58,295 nt of DNA from Chloroflexota bacterium (GTDB lineage Bacteria > Chloroflexota > UBA6077 > JACCZL01). Positions 23,054 to 39,968 of the stretch are shown piece after piece. Below the pieces are notes generated by a model. It had not been told where the DNA came from. It saw only the letters and a list, made by a program, of their open reading frames with translations, and did not search any database. Numbering within the stretch: position 1 is the first letter of the stretch; every line of letters starts with the position of its first letter. The stretch spans positions 1-58,295 of the forward strand of contig JADZEM010000071.1 of NCBI GenBank assembly GCA_020850535.1, given 5' to 3'. The position numbers and the translations under genes are program-made.

Positions 23054-23695
23054 CTACAGGTAGCGGACGACCTGGACGACCTTCCCCTGTACGCGCAGTT
23101 GGGACGGATCGACGTAGATCGGCTGCATGGCCGCGTTCGCAGGCTGCAGCCGTACCTGACCACGCTCGCGGTACAGCCGCTTGAGGGTGGCGACGCCCTC
23201 CGTGGACGGCCCCTGGCTCATCAGCAGCGCCACCACGATGTCGCCGTTCTCAGCCGTCTCCTGCGGGCGGATCACCACCAGATCGCCGTCGTCGATCAGA
23301 TCCTCGATCATCGACTTGCCCTTGACCTGGAGGGCGTAGCAGCCGTCCGGCACGGTGCCCGCGCCAAGCTCCAGGTAGTCATCGTGCTGTTCGAGCGCCT
23401 CAATCGGCTCACCAGCGGCGATCCGGCCGACAATCGGCACCCGCACCAGCGATGGCCGCGCAAGCGTGGCGGTCTGGCCGGGCTGCCCCACCAGCCCCAG
23501 CCCGCGCGACACTTCCCGATCCCGGCGGATCATCCCGCTCCGTTCGAGCGCGCGCAGGTTGTAGTCGACCACGGAGGTCGAGGAAATCCCGACGGCCTGG
23601 CCGATCTCCCGGATACTCGGCGGGTAGCCGTGGTCACTGGTGTACTCAGCCAGAAAGTCGAGGATCCGCTGCTGGCGGTCGGACAGCTTCCGCAT
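23054..23695 (-). CDS. lexA: LexA repressor
   Basis: A 213-residue SOS repressor. The N-terminal winged helix (LSDRQQRILDFLAEY to about 65) binds DNA and the C-terminal S24 domain self-cleaves when RecA is activated. The cleavage bond Ala94-Gly95 is in RIAAGEPIEA, the nucleophile is Ser128 in KGKSMIEDL, and the general base is Lys172 in TLKRLYRE. A ~7-residue insertion (SQGPSTEG) lengthens the Ser-Lys spacing relative to E. coli. ATG at 23695 follows GAGGAG by 5 bases. A LexA box overlaps its own promoter, so it is autoregulated. Confidence 0.97.
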   Translation of the reverse strand: MRKLSDRQQRILDFLAEYTSDHGYPPSIREIGQAVGISSTSVVDYNLRALERSGMIRRDREVSRGLGLVGQPGQTATLARPSLVRVPIVGRIAAGEPIEALEQHDDYLELGAGTVPDGCYALQVKGKSMIEDLIDDGDLVVIRPQETAENGDIVVALLMSQGPSTEGVATLKRLYRERGQVRLQPANAAMQPIYVDPSQLRVQGKVVQVVRYL

Positions 23696-23725: not shown

Positions 23726-23731
23726 CCTATA
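23726..23731 (-). promoter_or_regulatory. -10 element of lexA
   Basis: On the minus strand TATAGG lies just downstream of the LexA box and 30 bases before the start codon. Repressor binding would block polymerase here. Confidence 0.5.
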
Positions 23732-23743
23732 GAACAGGCGTTC
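23732..23743. promoter_or_regulatory. LexA box upstream of lexA
   Basis: GAACAGGCGTTC is a perfect GAAC-N4-GTTC palindrome, the Gram-positive/Chloroflexi-type SOS operator. It overlaps the lexA promoter region and fits autoregulation. A second box of this form is at 36789. Confidence 0.88.
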
Positions 23744-23944
23744 TCAGGGATCGTACCACTCTCGAAGGTGCCGGTCAACTACTTGTGCACACGAATGTCA
23801 CGCTCGGGAACAGTTCGTAACACGGTCGTTCGAGAACGAGAACCCGGTCTGGCCTGCCGGCAGCCGCTGGGCGGGCTGAAGCCGGCAGCGTGCAAAGCAG
23901 CCTGTGTTGCGCGCATGCGGCAGCGGGCGTACGATGCTCTCAGG

Positions 23945-34744: not shown

Positions 34745-35842
34745 ATGAGCGGACCGCCCCTCTTCGCCCAGCTTGCCGCGCGCTTCGGCGCGCAGCCCGA
34801 ACGGCTCGCCGTCGAGAGCCTCGCCTTCCTGCTGTCTGGCTCGGGCGCGGTGCGCGCCGCCGTCGGCGACCTCTGCACGATCGCTGCGCCACAGCTTGCA
34901 TCAGTCAGCCAGGGGCTGCGGTTCGGGAGCAGGCCGGACGCTGACGAGCGACGTCAGGCAGGGCCGGTCGGCCTGGACCGGCACGGCGCGGCGCGCGTCA
35001 TCGTGGACGGCCGCTTCTGGTCCGCCCTGCCAGCCGATCAGCCAGTCAGTGCGCTTCGGCAGCTCGCGCCACACGTCGAGAGCGCCCTGCTGATCCTCGC
35101 GCCGCCGGAGCGGTTTACGGCGCTCTGGGCCGAGGTTCGCCGCCGCTGCCGGCTGGCGGGCCTGCCGGTCCACGGCGACCATGCTATCGGCGATCCGATC
35201 CGTTGGACGCGGGTGGGCGAGCGACAGACTGTCATCCTGACGAGCTGGAGCGCCGTGCTGGCCGGGGCGCGCACACGGCTCCAGGCGGCAGGCGACGCTG
35301 ACACTCTGGCCGAGATCGAGCAGCTGGCTGGCCTGTGCGCGCAGCTCGACGGGGAGGCGTTCATGCCGCTCGGGATCGACGAGCTGTCGAGCACGGTGGC
35401 GCGGCGGCTCTCGCAGCTGGCCGGGCTGGTCGAGCAATTGGCCCAGAACTGTCAGGGCAGCGGCCTGTGCCTGAGCGCCGAGCCTGACGGTCATGCCGAG
35501 CCGGGCCACCTCGGGTATCGGCTGCGGTTCTCGGGCGTCTCGCTGGTGGTCTGCTTCAGCGTCTCACGGTGGGCGGCGCTCCGCGAGACGCCCTTCTGGC
35601 TGCTGGTCTACGACGCCGATGGCCGCCCGGCACGGGGCGTCGAGGCGCGCCTGGGGGCGCTGGCGTCCGAGATTCCCCCACGCTTGCTGCGAGACGCCGA
35701 GTCCGACGCGCCGCTGGTACCGCTCATCCCGCCGGTCGGCGTGGACCGCGAGGCCGTCTTGTCGGAGCTGGAACGGCAGGTTGAGGCGGTCGCGCGCTTG
35801 CTCGGAGAAGGCCCCACGACCGGGTTCGGCTCGGCCGGCTGA
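34745..35842 (+). CDS. Degenerate PD-(D/E)XK nuclease-like protein
   Basis: A 365-residue soluble protein. Residues 5-45 (LFAQLAARFGAQPERLAVES and following) and 73-118 (VGLDRHGAARVIVDGRFW, ADQPV, then ALLILAPPERFTALW) follow a family of PD-(D/E)XK-superfamily proteins that I recall as having PDLVGFD and IEAKFWAGL at these places. Here the first acidic residue is replaced (AGPVGLD) and the E-x-K triplet is D-G-R (88-90), so nuclease activity is doubtful. The C-terminal half is unassigned. The ATG directly follows a -10 hexamer. Its 3' end overlaps the convergent LexA-box gene by 235 bases. Confidence 0.65.
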   Translation: MSGPPLFAQLAARFGAQPERLAVESLAFLLSGSGAVRAAVGDLCTIAAPQLASVSQGLRFGSRPDADERRQAGPVGLDRHGAARVIVDGRFWSALPADQPVSALRQLAPHVESALLILAPPERFTALWAEVRRRCRLAGLPVHGDHAIGDPIRWTRVGERQTVILTSWSAVLAGARTRLQAAGDADTLAEIEQLAGLCAQLDGEAFMPLGIDELSSTVARRLSQLAGLVEQLAQNCQGSGLCLSAEPDGHAEPGHLGYRLRFSGVSLVVCFSVSRWAALRETPFWLLVYDADGRPARGVEARLGALASEIPPRLLRDAESDAPLVPLIPPVGVDREAVLSELERQVEAVARLLGEGPTTGFGSAG

Positions 35843-36744
35843 CTGGCCTTCCGGGCGGATCGCGCCGAGCCTGACGGCACGGTTGCCGCCGGTTTGGGAG
35901 CCGTGGCCAACGACCTGGATGCGGCCGGCACTCCAGCCGCCTCGACCGCCTGGCGGTCACGCCGGCGAGCCGGCCGCTTCACGCCCGACGGCTCGACCTC
36001 GGCGGCGACTCCATCAGCCAATGCTGCGCTCTCGGCGGCTGACTCGCCCGACGGCGAGCCAACCCGCTTCCGCCGAGCGCCACGCGTCGCGCGAGCCGGC
36101 GGAGCGGCTGGTTCGAGCAGCATCGCAGCATCCCGATCCGGGCGGCCAGCGGCGGCAGGCCGGGCGTCCGCGTCAGCAGTGTCGGTATCCAGTCCAGCAG
36201 GCGAGACAGCCACGACAGCGTCAGCGCGATCAGCGCGATCAGCGCGATCAGCGCCCGGAGCATGGTCGAGTGCGGCCTCCCGCGCTACGGCCTCCGACTC
36301 GCCCGGCACCGCCGGTGGCAGCCCGAGCGGCGCGTCGATCTGCGCCTCGGCCGCACGCCAGCCGCCCTCCTGCCGCTTGCGCTCGCGCCGACGCCGGGTG
36401 GTGGCACGGACCGGCCGCGCCGGACCGCTCTCGGCGAGCACGGCACGCTCGTCGGCCACCACGACAGCCGCGACAGATGCCGACTCCATCACGGCCCCGG
36501 CCTTGCGTCGGCGGGCGCGGGCTGGCTCCAGCGACTCGTCCCGCCCGACCCAGAAATGATGCTTCAGTACCGACGGGTCTGGCCGGACCAGCAGCGTCGT
36601 ATCGGCAAACAGCTCGTCGGGGTGGACGTGGCAGCAGTTGGCCGGACGGCCGAACCGGGCGGCAAAGCGCTCGGCAGCCTCGGCGAGCCGGGCCTGCGGG
36701 GACAGGCGGCGGTTGGCATCGTACCAGAGGAGCCCGAGCTTCAT
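35608..36744 (-). CDS. LexA-box-controlled protein of unknown function with long disordered tail
   Basis: A 378-residue open frame. Only the first ~75 residues look folded: MKLGLLWYDANRRLSP, AAERFAARFGRPANCCHVHP, then LKHHFWVGRDE. The rest is Ala/Arg/Pro/Ser-rich with a 9-bp repeat coding ADR units. ATG at 36744 has GAGGAGG 7-8 bases upstream. TACAAT and a perfect LexA box (36789-36800) lie just upstream, so it should be induced by DNA damage. The last ~78 codons overlap the convergent gene, so the true end could be earlier through a frameshift I cannot see. Function unknown. Confidence 0.62.
   Translation of the reverse strand: MKLGLLWYDANRRLSPQARLAEAAERFAARFGRPANCCHVHPDELFADTTLLVRPDPSVLKHHFWVGRDESLEPARARRRKAGAVMESASVAAVVVADERAVLAESGPARPVRATTRRRRERKRQEGGWRAAEAQIDAPLGLPPAVPGESEAVAREAALDHAPGADRADRADRADAVVAVSPAGLDTDTADADARPAAAGRPDRDAAMLLEPAAPPARATRGARRKRVGSPSGESAAESAALADGVAAEVEPSGVKRPARRRDRQAVEAAGVPAASRSLATAPKPAATVPSGSARSARKASQPAEPNPVVGPSPSKRATASTCRSSSDKTASRSTPTGGMSGTSGASDSASRSKRGGISDASAPRRASTPRAGRPSAS
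36221..36254. repeat. 9-bp tandem repeat in a coding region
   Basis: TCAGCGCGA is repeated 3.8 times in frame, giving Ala-Asp-Arg units in the disordered tail of the LexA-box gene. Confidence 0.88.
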
Positions 36745-36788
36745 GACGCCCTCCTCGGCGCAGGCGGGAGACGATCCGGATCGTGATA

Positions 36789-36800
36789 GAACTGGTGTTC
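36789..36800. promoter_or_regulatory. LexA box
   Basis: GAACTGGTGTTC is a perfect GAAC-N4-GTTC operator, flanked like the lexA site (AGAAC...GTTCT). It overlaps the likely start point downstream of TACAAT (minus strand, 36802-36807), so it should repress the 35608-36744 gene. tsaD begins 59 bases away on the other strand and has its own -10. Confidence 0.85.
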
Positions 36801-36843
36801 TATTGTACACCGGTCGGTCCGCGGCCGTCTGTTCCCGGGCCGC

Positions 36844-36858: not shown

Positions 36859-37860
36859 ATGCGCGTTCTGGGTATCGAGAGCTCCTGCGACGAGACGGCC
36901 TCCGCCATCGTGGTGGACGGGCGTCTGCTCGAATCGAACGTGGTCGCCTCGCAGGAGGATGTCCACCGCGAGACCGGCGGCGTGGTCCCCGAGACGGCGT
37001 CGCGGCTGCACTTGCGGGCCATCGGGCCGGTCATCCAGCGGGCCTTCGCCGAGGCCGGCCGCACCTGGGACGACATCGACGTGATCGCGGTGACGCGCGG
37101 TCCGGGTCTGGCCGGGTCATTGCTGGTGGGCGTGAACGCGGCCAAGGCGCTGGCGTTCGCGCGCGGGCTGCCGCTGGTGGGGGTCAACCACCTGGAGGGG
37201 CACGTCTACGCGAACTGGCTGGTGGAGGGCGTCGAGCCGGTCTTCCCCGTCATCTGCCTGATCGTCTCGGGCGGCCACTCCGACATCGTGCTGATGCGCG
37301 GCCACGGTCAGTACGAGCGGCTCGGCTGGACCCTTGACGATGCGCCCGGCGAGGCGTTCGACAAGGCGGCGCGGATGATGGGCCTGCGCTATCCTGGCGG
37401 CCCGTCGATCCAGAAAGCCGCCGCCACCGGCGACCCGACCCGCTACCCGTTGCCGCGCGCCTGGCTGCGCCCGACCTGGAACTTCAGCTTCAGCGGCCTG
37501 AAGACGGCCGTCCACCGAACCGTCCACGAGGCTGGCGACAGCCTGAACGTCCCTGATCTGGCGGCCTCGTTTCAGGAAGCGGTCGTGGACGTCCTCGCCA
37601 CCAAGGCCGTTGAGGCCGCCCGCGAGCACGGCGCGAACACCATCGCGCTGGCGGGCGGCGTCGCGTCGAATCTGGCGCTGCGTCAGCGAGTCCAGCAGTT
37701 GAGCGGCGGCCCGGTGCTGATCCCGCCGGTCTCGCTGTGCACCGACAACGGCGCGATGATCGCGTCAGTCGGCTACTTCCGCTACGCGGCCGGCGAGCGC
37801 TCGGCCCTCGACCTCGACGTGATCCCGGTCCTGCCGATCGCCGAGCGCGCCGCCAGTTAG
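36859..37860 (+). CDS. tsaD: tRNA N6-adenosine threonylcarbamoyltransferase TsaD
   Basis: A 333-residue enzyme that transfers threonylcarbamoyl to A37 of ANN-decoding tRNAs, with TsaB and TsaE. It has the ASKHA-fold start [13 protein letters not shown], the metal-binding His111 and His115 in [23 protein letters not shown] and the C-terminal [13 protein letters not shown]. Length is standard. ATG 36859 is preferred over the GTG at 36853, which would lie too close to the -10. Its stop overlaps the stop of the convergent HepT-like gene. Confidence 0.97.
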
Positions 37861-38333
37861 CTCACCGCCTCACGGTCCGGCTGATCGCCATCGTCGGGAC
37901 ACTCCGGCTCGGGGCGGCGCAGACCGAACGCCACCAGCACGCCATCGGCAAACTGGGTCAAATCGTTGGTCCAGACCTCGGCGTGGCGCTCGATGTAGTC
38001 GTCGTCCAGGTGGTCGAACTCCTCATGCGCCAGCGTCACGAGCCGCGTGGACGTAGCCAGTCGCTCGCTCAGGTCCGGGTCGATCACGTCATGCCGGGCC
38101 AGCATCCGGAATAGCGCCATGTGGTGATCCCAGTGCTCCCAGCCGGCATCGAGGATGATCGTCTCGGCGAGGGCGATGGCCGATTCAAGGGCGCGCAGCA
38201 TATTGTGCTCGACCAGATCGTCGATCTCACGCTGGAGCAGGAAATCGTGGCGTGACCCGCGCGTCTCACGCACGCGCGCGACATGCCGGTCCAGGCGCTG
38301 AATCCAGTAGAGCGTGCCGCGCGGATCCTTCAC
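37857..38333 (-). CDS. HepT-like (DUF86-type) protein without cognate nucleotidyltransferase
   Basis: A 158-residue all-helical protein. Arg97-x5-His103 ([16 protein letters not shown]) matches the R-x(4-6)-H RNase motif of HepT toxins and the following helices fit the fold. In HepT the motif continues HxY, where the Tyr is AMPylated by the MntA antitoxin. Here that position is Glu105. No MntA gene is adjacent; a Uma2 gene lies 70 bases upstream on the same strand. GTG at 38333 has GGAGG 7 bases upstream. It may be a diverged toxin or a housekeeping relative. Confidence 0.6.
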
Positions 38334-38403
38334 CAAGCGCCCTCCTGGCTCACGCTCCAACGACGCTCCGTATCGTCGACGCCACCTGCAGCTCGCGCTT
38401 GCG

Positions 38404-38952
38404 TCAGTCTGCCAGCTCGTCCAGCGGGATCTCAAGCCCTGGGAACAGTGTCGGGCGGAAGACCTCGCCGGGGTCAACCGTGCAGACCAATTGGTAGCCC
38501 CGCTCGCCGAGCACCCGTTCCTCGATGCGTGGGCCTTCGGGATCGAGGATCCAGTAGTGCGTCACGCCGGCCGCACCGTAGCGGCGCAGCTTGATGCCCC
38601 GATCCCGGGCCTCGGTACTCGGCGACAGCACCTCGACCACCAGATCAGGCGGCCCCTCGACGCCCCGCTCGGAGATGTAGTGCGCCCGCTCGTGCGAGAT
38701 GAAGATGATATCCGGCTCCAGGCCGTTCTCATCATCCAGTACCACGCCAGTGGGGGCCGGCACGACATAGCCAAGATGATGGTCATCAACCCAGTTGATG
38801 ACGCGCTTGTTCAGTCGATTGAGTTGTAGCTGGTGCCTCCATGCCGGACTTGGACTCACGTAGAGCTCCCCATCGATTACCTCGTAGATTTTGCCGTTGT
38901 CCGGTGCGTCCCAGATGTCCGACGCCAGGAAGCGAACGCCGTGTGCCGCCAT
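38404..38952 (-). CDS. Uma2 family (DUF820) putative endonuclease
   Basis: A 182-residue protein with the full Uma2 restriction-endonuclease-like fold: YEVIDGELYVSPSPAWRHQ, then GLEPDIIFIS with the catalytic Asp, and PPDLVVEVLSPSTEARDRGIK with the Glu and Lys positions, followed by VTHYWILDPEG. ATG at 38952 has AGGAGG 6 bases upstream. Such genes are numerous in Chloroflexota and cyanobacteria and their role is unclear. It precedes the HepT-like gene. A truncated relative is at 26056. Confidence 0.88.
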   Translation of the reverse strand: MAAHGVRFLASDIWDAPDNGKIYEVIDGELYVSPSPAWRHQLQLNRLNKRVINWVDDHHLGYVVPAPTGVVLDDENGLEPDIIFISHERAHYISERGVEGPPDLVVEVLSPSTEARDRGIKLRRYGAAGVTHYWILDPEGPRIEERVLGERGYQLVCTVDPGEVFRPTLFPGLEIPLDELAD

Positions 38953-39008
38953 CTCCAGCCTCCTACAGCCAGTGTACACGCGCCACGCCCGACTACGGAC
39001 AAGAAAGG

Positions 39009-39037
39009 CCCCCTCTCCCGGTGTGCGGGAAAGGGGG
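39009..39037. repeat. GC-rich REP-like hairpin, copy 2
   Basis: CCCCCTCTCCCG pairs with CGGGAAAGGGGG around a GTGTG loop, one mismatch. It lies between the Uma2 gene and the end of the sugar ABC operon and may end that transcript. Its core matches the copy at 44572. Confidence 0.7.
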
Positions 39038-39065
39038 GGTGGGAGTGGCGGGAGCCAGCGAGCGC

Positions 39066-39968
39066 CTACCCCTTGACCGACCCTGCCGTCAGCCCGCTCA
39101 CCACGAACCGCTGCGCCACGAAGTACAGCAGCACCACCGGCATGCTCATCAGCGTGGCTCCGGCCATGATCATTCCCCACAGGAAGATGTCCCCGAAGAC
39201 CAGCTTCGTCATGCCCGGCGAGAGCGTCATCTTGGTGCTGTCGTTCATCAAGATGAAGGCGTAGAGGTACTCGTTCCAGGAGAGCGTGAAGGCGAAGATC
39301 GTCGCGGCGGCCACGCCCGGCGCGGCCAGCGGCAGGATGATCAGCACCATCGCCTGCACCCGCGTCGCGCCGTCCACCAGCGCCGCTTCCTCAAGCTCGC
39401 GCGGGATGCTGGTCAGGTACGCCCGCAGCATCCAGGTGCAGAACGGCACCGTGAAGATCAGGTAGCTCAGCACCAGCCCGAAATAGTCGTCGGTCAGGCC
39501 GAGCACGCTGAGGATCACGAAGACCGGCACCACGAGCAGCGTGGCCGGGAAGATGTACGCCAGGAAGAACGTCCCCGCCAGGAAGCCCCGCCCTGGGTAG
39601 CGCAGCCGTGCCAGGCTGTAGGCCGCCATCGTCCCGACGACCACCGCCAGCAGCGTGGTGATCATCGAGACCGCCGCGCTGTTCCACATCCAGAGCATGA
39701 ACGGGTACTCGCGGATGAGCTGCGCGAAGGCGTCCAGCGTGATCCGCTTGGGCAGCAGGCTGATCTTCGCGCTGTACGAGAGCGTCGGCGGATCGAACGC
39801 CGTCAGCAGCATCCAGTACAGCGGGAAGATCACGATCACCAGGGCAGTCCCCAGCACGGACCACTGGAGCACCAGCTTGACGATGCGCTCCTGCTGAAGC
39901 GTCCCGGACCGGCTCGCGCCCGAGCCGCGCGCCTCCTGCACATTGATGGTCTGAACGGCGTTGCTCAT
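39066..39968 (-). CDS. Sugar ABC transporter permease, MalG-type
   Basis: A 300-residue inner-membrane permease with six membrane segments and the EAA loop that contacts the ATPase: EEAALVDGATRVQAMVLIIL (about 197-216). The start ATG at 39968 overlaps the stop of the MalF-type gene (ATGA), so the two are translationally coupled. It is the last gene of the operon; no ATP-binding protein gene follows, so a shared MsmK/UgpC-type ATPase elsewhere is expected. Substrate is probably a sugar or glycerol phosphate derivative. Confidence 0.93.
   Translation of the reverse strand: MSNAVQTINVQEARGSGASRSGTLQQERIVKLVLQWSVLGTALVIVIFPLYWMLLTAFDPPTLSYSAKISLLPKRITLDAFAQLIREYPFMLWMWNSAAVSMITTLLAVVVGTMAAYSLARLRYPGRGFLAGTFFLAYIFPATLLVVPVFVILSVLGLTDDYFGLVLSYLIFTVPFCTWMLRAYLTSIPRELEEAALVDGATRVQAMVLIILPLAAPGVAAATIFAFTLSWNEYLYAFILMNDSTKMTLSPGMTKLVFGDIFLWGMIMAGATLMSMPVVLLYFVAQRFVVSGLTAGSVKG

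Follow-up and report, generated by a model that had tools for sequence, protein, structure and literature searches.

The locus examined here raises two linked questions: does a palindrome resembling a LexA box mark a gene of the SOS response, and what could the product of that gene do? The SOS response of the Chloroflexota is little described in the literature searched. The window, meaning the whole stretch of DNA analysed, is contig C71 (JADZEM010000071.1, 58,295 nucleotides) of a Chloroflexota bacterium, whose genome comprises 7.65 Mb in 227 contigs and is 96% complete. A preliminary description had proposed that a second LexA box in this window controls a protein unlike known SOS proteins.

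Box, promoter and gene start in the window

The features needed for the argument are the following.

23054 to 23695, minus strand: lexA (TIGR00498, E 1.8e-55; PF01726 and PF00717)
23731 to 23744, no strand assigned: LexA box of lexA, AGAACAGGCGTTCT, second in the window by matrix score
34745 to 35842, plus strand: convergent gene whose codon signature is good; Pfam gave nothing at E ≤ 0.05
35608 to 36744, minus strand: probable SOS gene of a new family, 378 aa as annotated, assigned by family search
35608 to 36528, minus strand: low-complexity tail of this gene, its frame doubtful past about residue 280 according to codon-position GC
36529 to 36744, minus strand: conserved domain, residues 1–72, predicted beta-alpha-beta-beta-beta (alignments A1 and A2; AlphaFold2 pLDDT 87–95 for residues 1–70)
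36750 to 36756, minus strand: ribosome-binding site GAGGAGG before the ATG, read from the sequence
36788 to 36801, no strand assigned: predicted LexA (SOS) box AGAACTGGTGTTCT, the top-scoring site of the window with the relatives' matrix
36802 to 36807, minus strand: putative -10 element TACAAT, abutting the box, read from the sequence
36859 to 37860, plus strand: tsaD (PF00814, E 5.9e-93), divergent neighbour not tracked by the box

The box is intergenic, between the divergent tsaD and the minus-strand gene 36744–35608 (hereafter the family gene), and it lies 5' of the latter at 43–44 bp from the ATG. The order on the minus strand is TACAAT, box, ATG, and between the box and the ATG stands GAGGAGG, the good ribosome-binding site already reported. 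The box had also been placed at the start of the gene; it does lie over the promoter, abutting TACAAT, but it does not overlap the start codon. The family gene has a LexA-type palindrome over its promoter, and the repressor gene lexA, with a matching autoregulatory box, is present in the same genome and window. The likeness to that autoregulatory box is borne out, as the 14-base form is also lexA's own site. The promoters of relatives are built alike: TATAAT (L011) and TACAAT (L012) abut or nearly abut the box on its 5' side, and in L014 the box is exactly the 17-bp spacer separating TTGACA from TACAAT.

The box might be a chance palindrome, and the 12-base core GAACTGGTGTTC (36789–36800, read from the sequence) gives this reading its footing. 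The core occurs twice in the window against 0.46 expected, a count of at least two is reached in 10 of 100 shuffles, and genome-wide there are 57 cores against 56 for the reversed control, that is, no enrichment. The core alone is weak evidence for a real box, and without enrichment we rejected it as a regulon marker. The 14-base form is found nine times in the 7.65 Mb, against one for its control. Sharper separation came from a 22-bp matrix made of 54 distinct boxes of relatives, with the window's own box left out. In a scan of the window it ranks the box of the family gene first (23.9 bits) and that of lexA second (14.6 bits), the next site reaching 3.7 bits, and the best score in 40 simulated windows is 19.4. 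A matrix that omits its own family still gives the window box 17.4 bits. The score above all simulated windows, together with the phylogenetic conservation described below, makes a chance origin exceedingly improbable.

The nine 14-base sites of the genome include those of lexA, the family gene, a DUF5131 gene, and an HhH gene ahead of one for a ResIII-type helicase; of the others, one precedes a phage-portal-like frame, one falls within a long coding frame, and three are further sites. In the DUF5131 locus of this genome (L005, 1502–2398), a strong LexA-type box precedes a Gp37/Gp68-like gene (PF07505, E 4.4e-93), near a frame that we take to be TcmP-like. In L006 (1502–3014) a strong LexA-type box is followed by the HhH_8/HHH_5 gene and the ResIII-type helicase gene, a candidate second SOS repair operon of the genome. 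In L009 (1–1514) a LexA-type box lies 84 bp before the putative phage-portal-like reading frame, perhaps an SOS-controlled prophage.

A nuclease-like gene had been named as a neighbour of the family gene. Past tsaD, on the minus strand (37860–39180), a HepT-like gene (PF01934, E 4.2e-07) overlaps a gene for a putative Uma2 endonuclease (PF05685, E 1.7e-36), and this pair is perhaps what was meant. The immediate neighbours, however, are tsaD and the unmatched plus-strand gene; the earlier wording is only loosely apt, and the nuclease-like neighbour looks incidental.

The family and its box across the Chloroflexota

A single-sequence scan of the genome contigs for relatives gave 350 pattern matches and no confirmed one, because the family is too divergent. 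With the first 80 residues as query, relatives were found in 9 of 61 genomes. A profile made from those nine (A1) found the family in 5 of the 29 same-class genomes searched, and in the phylum at large it was positive in 85 of 400 genomes, with 94 gene copies in total. All 94 copies were taken (loci L019–L108 and L191–L194); four of these joined the set late, and core densities and partner counts refer to the earlier 90 loci. The named members are Chloroflexota, save L122, which is named Gracilibacteria. A mobile-element origin was considered and rejected: limited searches returned no relatives from viral contigs (profile A3) or from plasmids (one member as query).

Boxes were scored within 1400 bp upstream of each gene, with a matrix derived from every family but the one under test (leave-one-family-out). 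A search upstream of homologs had been proposed in the preliminary description as a check on its reading, which the lack of a box there would have refuted. The reading withstood this check: 78 of the 94 copies have a box of at least 13 bits ahead of the gene or operon, against none of 91 downstream controls, whose maximum is 6.4 bits; this threshold was chosen after the result of the all-copies matrix, which had first been applied to the 29 copies without an exact core. At least one boxed copy is present in 78 of the 85 genomes, and 14 of the 16 families are box-positive, a breadth that favours the suggestion of a new member of the SOS response. Among the 90 loci, the density of the exact core is 1.889 per kb at -100 to 0, 0.574 at -1000 to -100 and 0.051 further up, and it falls downstream to 0.023 at 0 to +1000 and to 0 at +1000 to +3000. 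A scrambled control palindrome gives 0, 0.025, 0.010, 0.023 and 0.009 per kb in the same five bins.

No site of at least 13 bits precedes the other 16 copies. Among them are second copies from f26 and f57 as well as the three loci of f67/f80, where L042 and L084 are FtsK-associated yet lack a box. Two f45 members are far under the threshold, and three further copies come nearer to it, with 12.1, 11.2 and 10.3 bits. In L067, L070 and L072 another gene stands between the box and the family gene, and the link between the two is uncertain. The second copies of the Chloroflexia that show no LexA box within the sequence covered (L033, L037, L051, L056, L095, L096, L102 and L106, with only 110 bp of upstream sequence in L095) are possibly constitutive paralogs.

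The position of the box also allows a reading in which it serves tsaD, or both genes, and the family gene is a bystander: tsaD starts 58 bp past the box on the opposite strand. Across the phylum, however, no more than 3 of 94 loci have tsaD in divergent orientation, and it is the family gene or its operon that the box tracks. Regulation of tsaD was rejected on this ground as very improbable. Because the box stands upstream of relatives, is absent downstream of them and does not track tsaD, we infer that the window gene is almost certainly under LexA repression as part of the SOS response, and that it is one of a conserved, Chloroflexota-wide family.

The protein, its partners and a proposed role

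The preliminary description had noted a conserved N-terminus of about 75 residues that matches no known SOS protein. The lack of a match stands, since Pfam, NCBIfam and PHROGs gave no family among the proteins tested; the extent of the conserved part is amended to about residues 1–72. For 70 members, Pfam returned nothing above noise, with scattered matches at E ≤ 1 (best 0.0081). In the alignment of these 70 (A2), W7 is invariant and D9, K19, A23, Y27, P35, W65 and G67 are nearly so. AlphaFold2 models of two members have mean pLDDT of 85.1 and 88.5 and a confident core, predicted as a strand, a long helix and three strands. Comparison of the two models with solved structures gave best Z scores of 5.0 and 4.6, which are weak and tied among many unrelated folds, including HK97 capsid, encapsulin, chorismate mutase and the FtsZ C-terminal domain. 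With Foldseek, PDB matches have E of at least 0.74, and the best viral match (E 0.007) is to an unnamed protein; a sequence-profile search of the PDB found nothing under E 0.49. With weak, tied matches only (Z ≤ 5.0), the fold was rejected as a functional clue. Several uncharacterised Bacillus phage proteins of 80–130 aa score Foldseek probabilities of 0.93–0.98 against the family fold, with E of 0.06–0.13.

Most members are about 67–135 aa long, and those of f45 reach 534 aa. In the window protein, the coding signature is kept in the first part of the tail. From about residue 280 onward the codon-position pattern follows instead the convergent plus-strand gene, which shares 235 bp with the annotated 3' end. 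Because the pattern there matches the convergent gene, the annotated end may be wrong. A short tandem repeat, GATCAGCGC, lies in the tail at 36231–36256, where the codon pattern begins to degrade, and is a possible slippage or assembly problem. With regard to a frameshift in the tail, the other frames were inspected for stops and motifs only.

Because the core is neutral on average, with a median net charge of 0 in the 70 members, it is unlikely to be a generic DNA binder. The tails could nevertheless bind DNA, and tailed members might be SOS-induced nucleoid proteins in which DNA is coated or compacted by a tail that is basic and disordered, the domain serving only as its anchor. The f45 tails suit such a role: they are rich in K, A, P and T, with 15–27% K+R against 0–12% D+E, and in this they resemble histone H1-type tails. 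Most f20 and f57 members, however, are tail-less proteins of about 75–85 aa, the core has the neutral charge noted above, and the tail of the window protein, part of it doubtful, has a balance that leans less to the basic side (16% K+R, 11% D+E). We regard a nucleoid protein as quite unlikely.

The f45 tails also hold a motif like those that bind the beta clamp. Five of the ten (L071, L089, L099, L101 and L192) contain Q-x-[ST]-L-W or Q-x-x-S-L-W, and where the motif is present the tail has one or two Trp. Shuffling of the tails reproduces this clamp-like pattern in 0–0.4%, a figure for a single clade and for a pattern defined after viewing four tails and then tested. The FtsK-like partner in L084 has QVDLW in a C-terminal extension. 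Published work gives QLxLF as the beta-binding consensus (PMC4549789) and QLPLWG as the motif of ImuB (PMC10421592). The frame of the window protein, tail included, is without a QLxLF-type motif.

Operons of relatives supply two recurrent partners, counted as BLAST clusters of ORFs over the 90 loci, with operons deduced from spacing. The first, an FtsK-derived ATPase, lies upstream on the same strand in 29 loci and falls into one BLAST cluster with genuine FtsK/SpoIIIE ATPases. Its stop is at most 47 bp before the family start, or overlaps it, in 27 of the 29; L042 and L084 have an intervening gene. The partners share a P-loop and a C-terminal FtsK-like region with FtsK/SpoIIIE (alignment A4), and 15 of 22 tested match FtsK_SpoIIIE. 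The Walker A motif is preserved intact in 26 of the 29, a TM-like stretch occurs in none of the 29, and most are short, about 260–310 aa. The ATPase gene is directly upstream in most members of f20, f47 and f58. In L052 and L054, lexA with its own box comes first and is followed at once by a further box, the FtsK-like gene and, last, the family gene; lexA of L054 was checked with Pfam.

The second partner is a protein of about 95 aa, encoded upstream in 21 of the 90 loci, in Chloroflexia lineages, with a conserved Arg, Tyr and C-terminal Trp (alignment A5). The gap to the family gene is 151–569 bp in 5 of the 21, and DUF6504 is matched by 4 of 13 proteins tested (best 4e-08). The ImuB-C domain is described in PMC3765255 as small, with two conserved basic residues and a C-terminal Trp, and a DNA-damage-guiding role is proposed for it there. 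The partner fits this description and appears to be an ImuB-C/DUF6504-like protein. A DUF6504 search of 61 relatives gave 13 matches, of which five (L181, L184, L186, L187 and L190) have an imuB-like gene, a dnaE-like gene or both alongside; for L184, L186, L187 and L190 the imuB-like gene was examined with Pfam, and for L181 and L186 the dnaE-like one. L186 and L187 are imuB–DUF6504–dnaE2 cassettes with a LexA-type box just 5' of imuB. Because DUF6504 sits with imuB and dnaE elsewhere in the phylum, the Chloroflexia neighbour is probably a relative of a mutasome-cassette component.

A complementary distribution with ImuB was considered and found uninformative: one type of ImuB is matched strongly in only 6 of 400 genomes, none of which carries the family, too few to mean much, and another type (G021, at locus L187) gave scores similar to those of Pol IV. 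The family gene of the window is solo: no FtsK-like gene adjoins it, and the search for DUF6504 found none in its genome.

The FtsK-derived partner admits another reading under the same LexA control, namely that the protein is an SOS checkpoint of division or chromosome segregation, acting with an FtsK-type motor as a functional analogue of SulA or YneA. Division inhibitors of the SOS response tend to be small proteins without kinship from one phylum to the next, and the ATPase gene stands directly upstream in most f20, f47 and f58 members. The predicted models also show a weak likeness to the FtsZ C-terminal domain (5v68, Z 3.9, rmsd 3.1, 62 aligned; 5mn5, Z 3.8, rmsd 3.5, 60 aligned). However, chorismate mutase, HK97 capsid and encapsulin score level with that match, the FtsK-like partners have no membrane segment, and the ImuB-C and clamp-like motifs favour replication. 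Of the alternatives to a fork-accessory role this checkpoint is the foremost, and we consider it doubtful.

We favour a fork-accessory mechanism, beginning with the predicted LexA regulation, which is strongly supported by conservation. LexA bound to the box at the -10 and start region would block transcription; upon DNA damage, RecA-stimulated self-cleavage of LexA would free the promoter, and the small domain protein would accumulate. The domain may then act as a protein–protein adaptor at damaged, stalled or gapped replication forks. In the Chloroflexia it would work with the ImuB-C/DUF6504-like translesion protein, in the f20, f47 and f58 lineages with the soluble, FtsK-derived DNA-translocating ATPase, and in f45 it could contact the beta clamp itself through the tail motif. 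The fork-accessory role draws on the operons and motifs of relatives, from which function is transferred at 19–56% identity to the window protein, and we hold it with moderate confidence. The explanation as a whole, a LexA-repressed gene whose adaptor domain serves damaged forks with translesion and translocation factors, likewise seems moderately probable. A more specific version is tentative: in an undescribed SOS complex, the adaptor would link the beta clamp at stalled forks to one of two partners, a soluble FtsK-derived motor or an ImuB-C protein that stands alone. If true, it would be a mutasome or fork-remodelling system made of parts other than UmuDC or ImuAB-DnaE2.

Comparison with known SOS systems

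A search by title and abstract, with subscription papers and preprints outside its scope, found no paper on a Chloroflexota LexA regulon. In the text searched, PMC3323433 refers to the phylum a single time, among groups due for analysis or having multiple chromosomes, and PMC3765255 and PMC12926913 do not contain its name. The kind of gene, one under LexA control, is known, and the protein family and its pairings appear to be undescribed in the literature searched. A Pfam-less domain predicted to be LexA-controlled in 14 of 16 family-level groups offers a target in the culturable Herpetosiphon and Chloroflexus, and the family could show how damage is tolerated in bacteria without the usual mutagenic polymerase cassettes.

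The window gene resembles those of other bacterial LexA/SOS regulons in the GAACN4GTTC form of its box, in the position of the box at the promoter and in that the window also contains lexA, preceded by the same box. It differs in that its product has no Pfam, NCBIfam or PHROGs match and, in the searches made, belongs to Chloroflexota genomes only. ImuB-C/DUF6504 (PF20114), a standalone SOS factor documented in PMC3765255, is likewise small, LexA-linked and found with varied repair partners, and the Chloroflexia neighbour of the family is ImuB-C-like. The family fold, however, is predicted as beta-alpha-beta-beta-beta, whereas ImuB-C is mainly beta, and none of the 70 family members matches PF20114 at E ≤ 1; it is the neighbour, not the family protein, that is DUF6504-like. 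The YolD family SOS factor, named in PMC3765255, is also small, SOS-linked, of poorly understood role and encoded beside translesion genes; it is matched by none of the 70 members at E ≤ 1, though a remote kinship may exist.

The ImuA-ImuB-DnaE2 mutasome shares with the proposed system the DUF6504/ImuB-C component and the logic of a clamp motif, and a LexA box precedes the cassette in L186 and L187. The family, by contrast, is not part of such cassettes, and the six strong-ImuB genomes lack it. FtsK/SpoIIIE translocases are the source of the upstream partner in 29 loci, although the partner is divergent, mostly about 260–310 aa and without the membrane part. In E. coli, ftsK is under SOS control.
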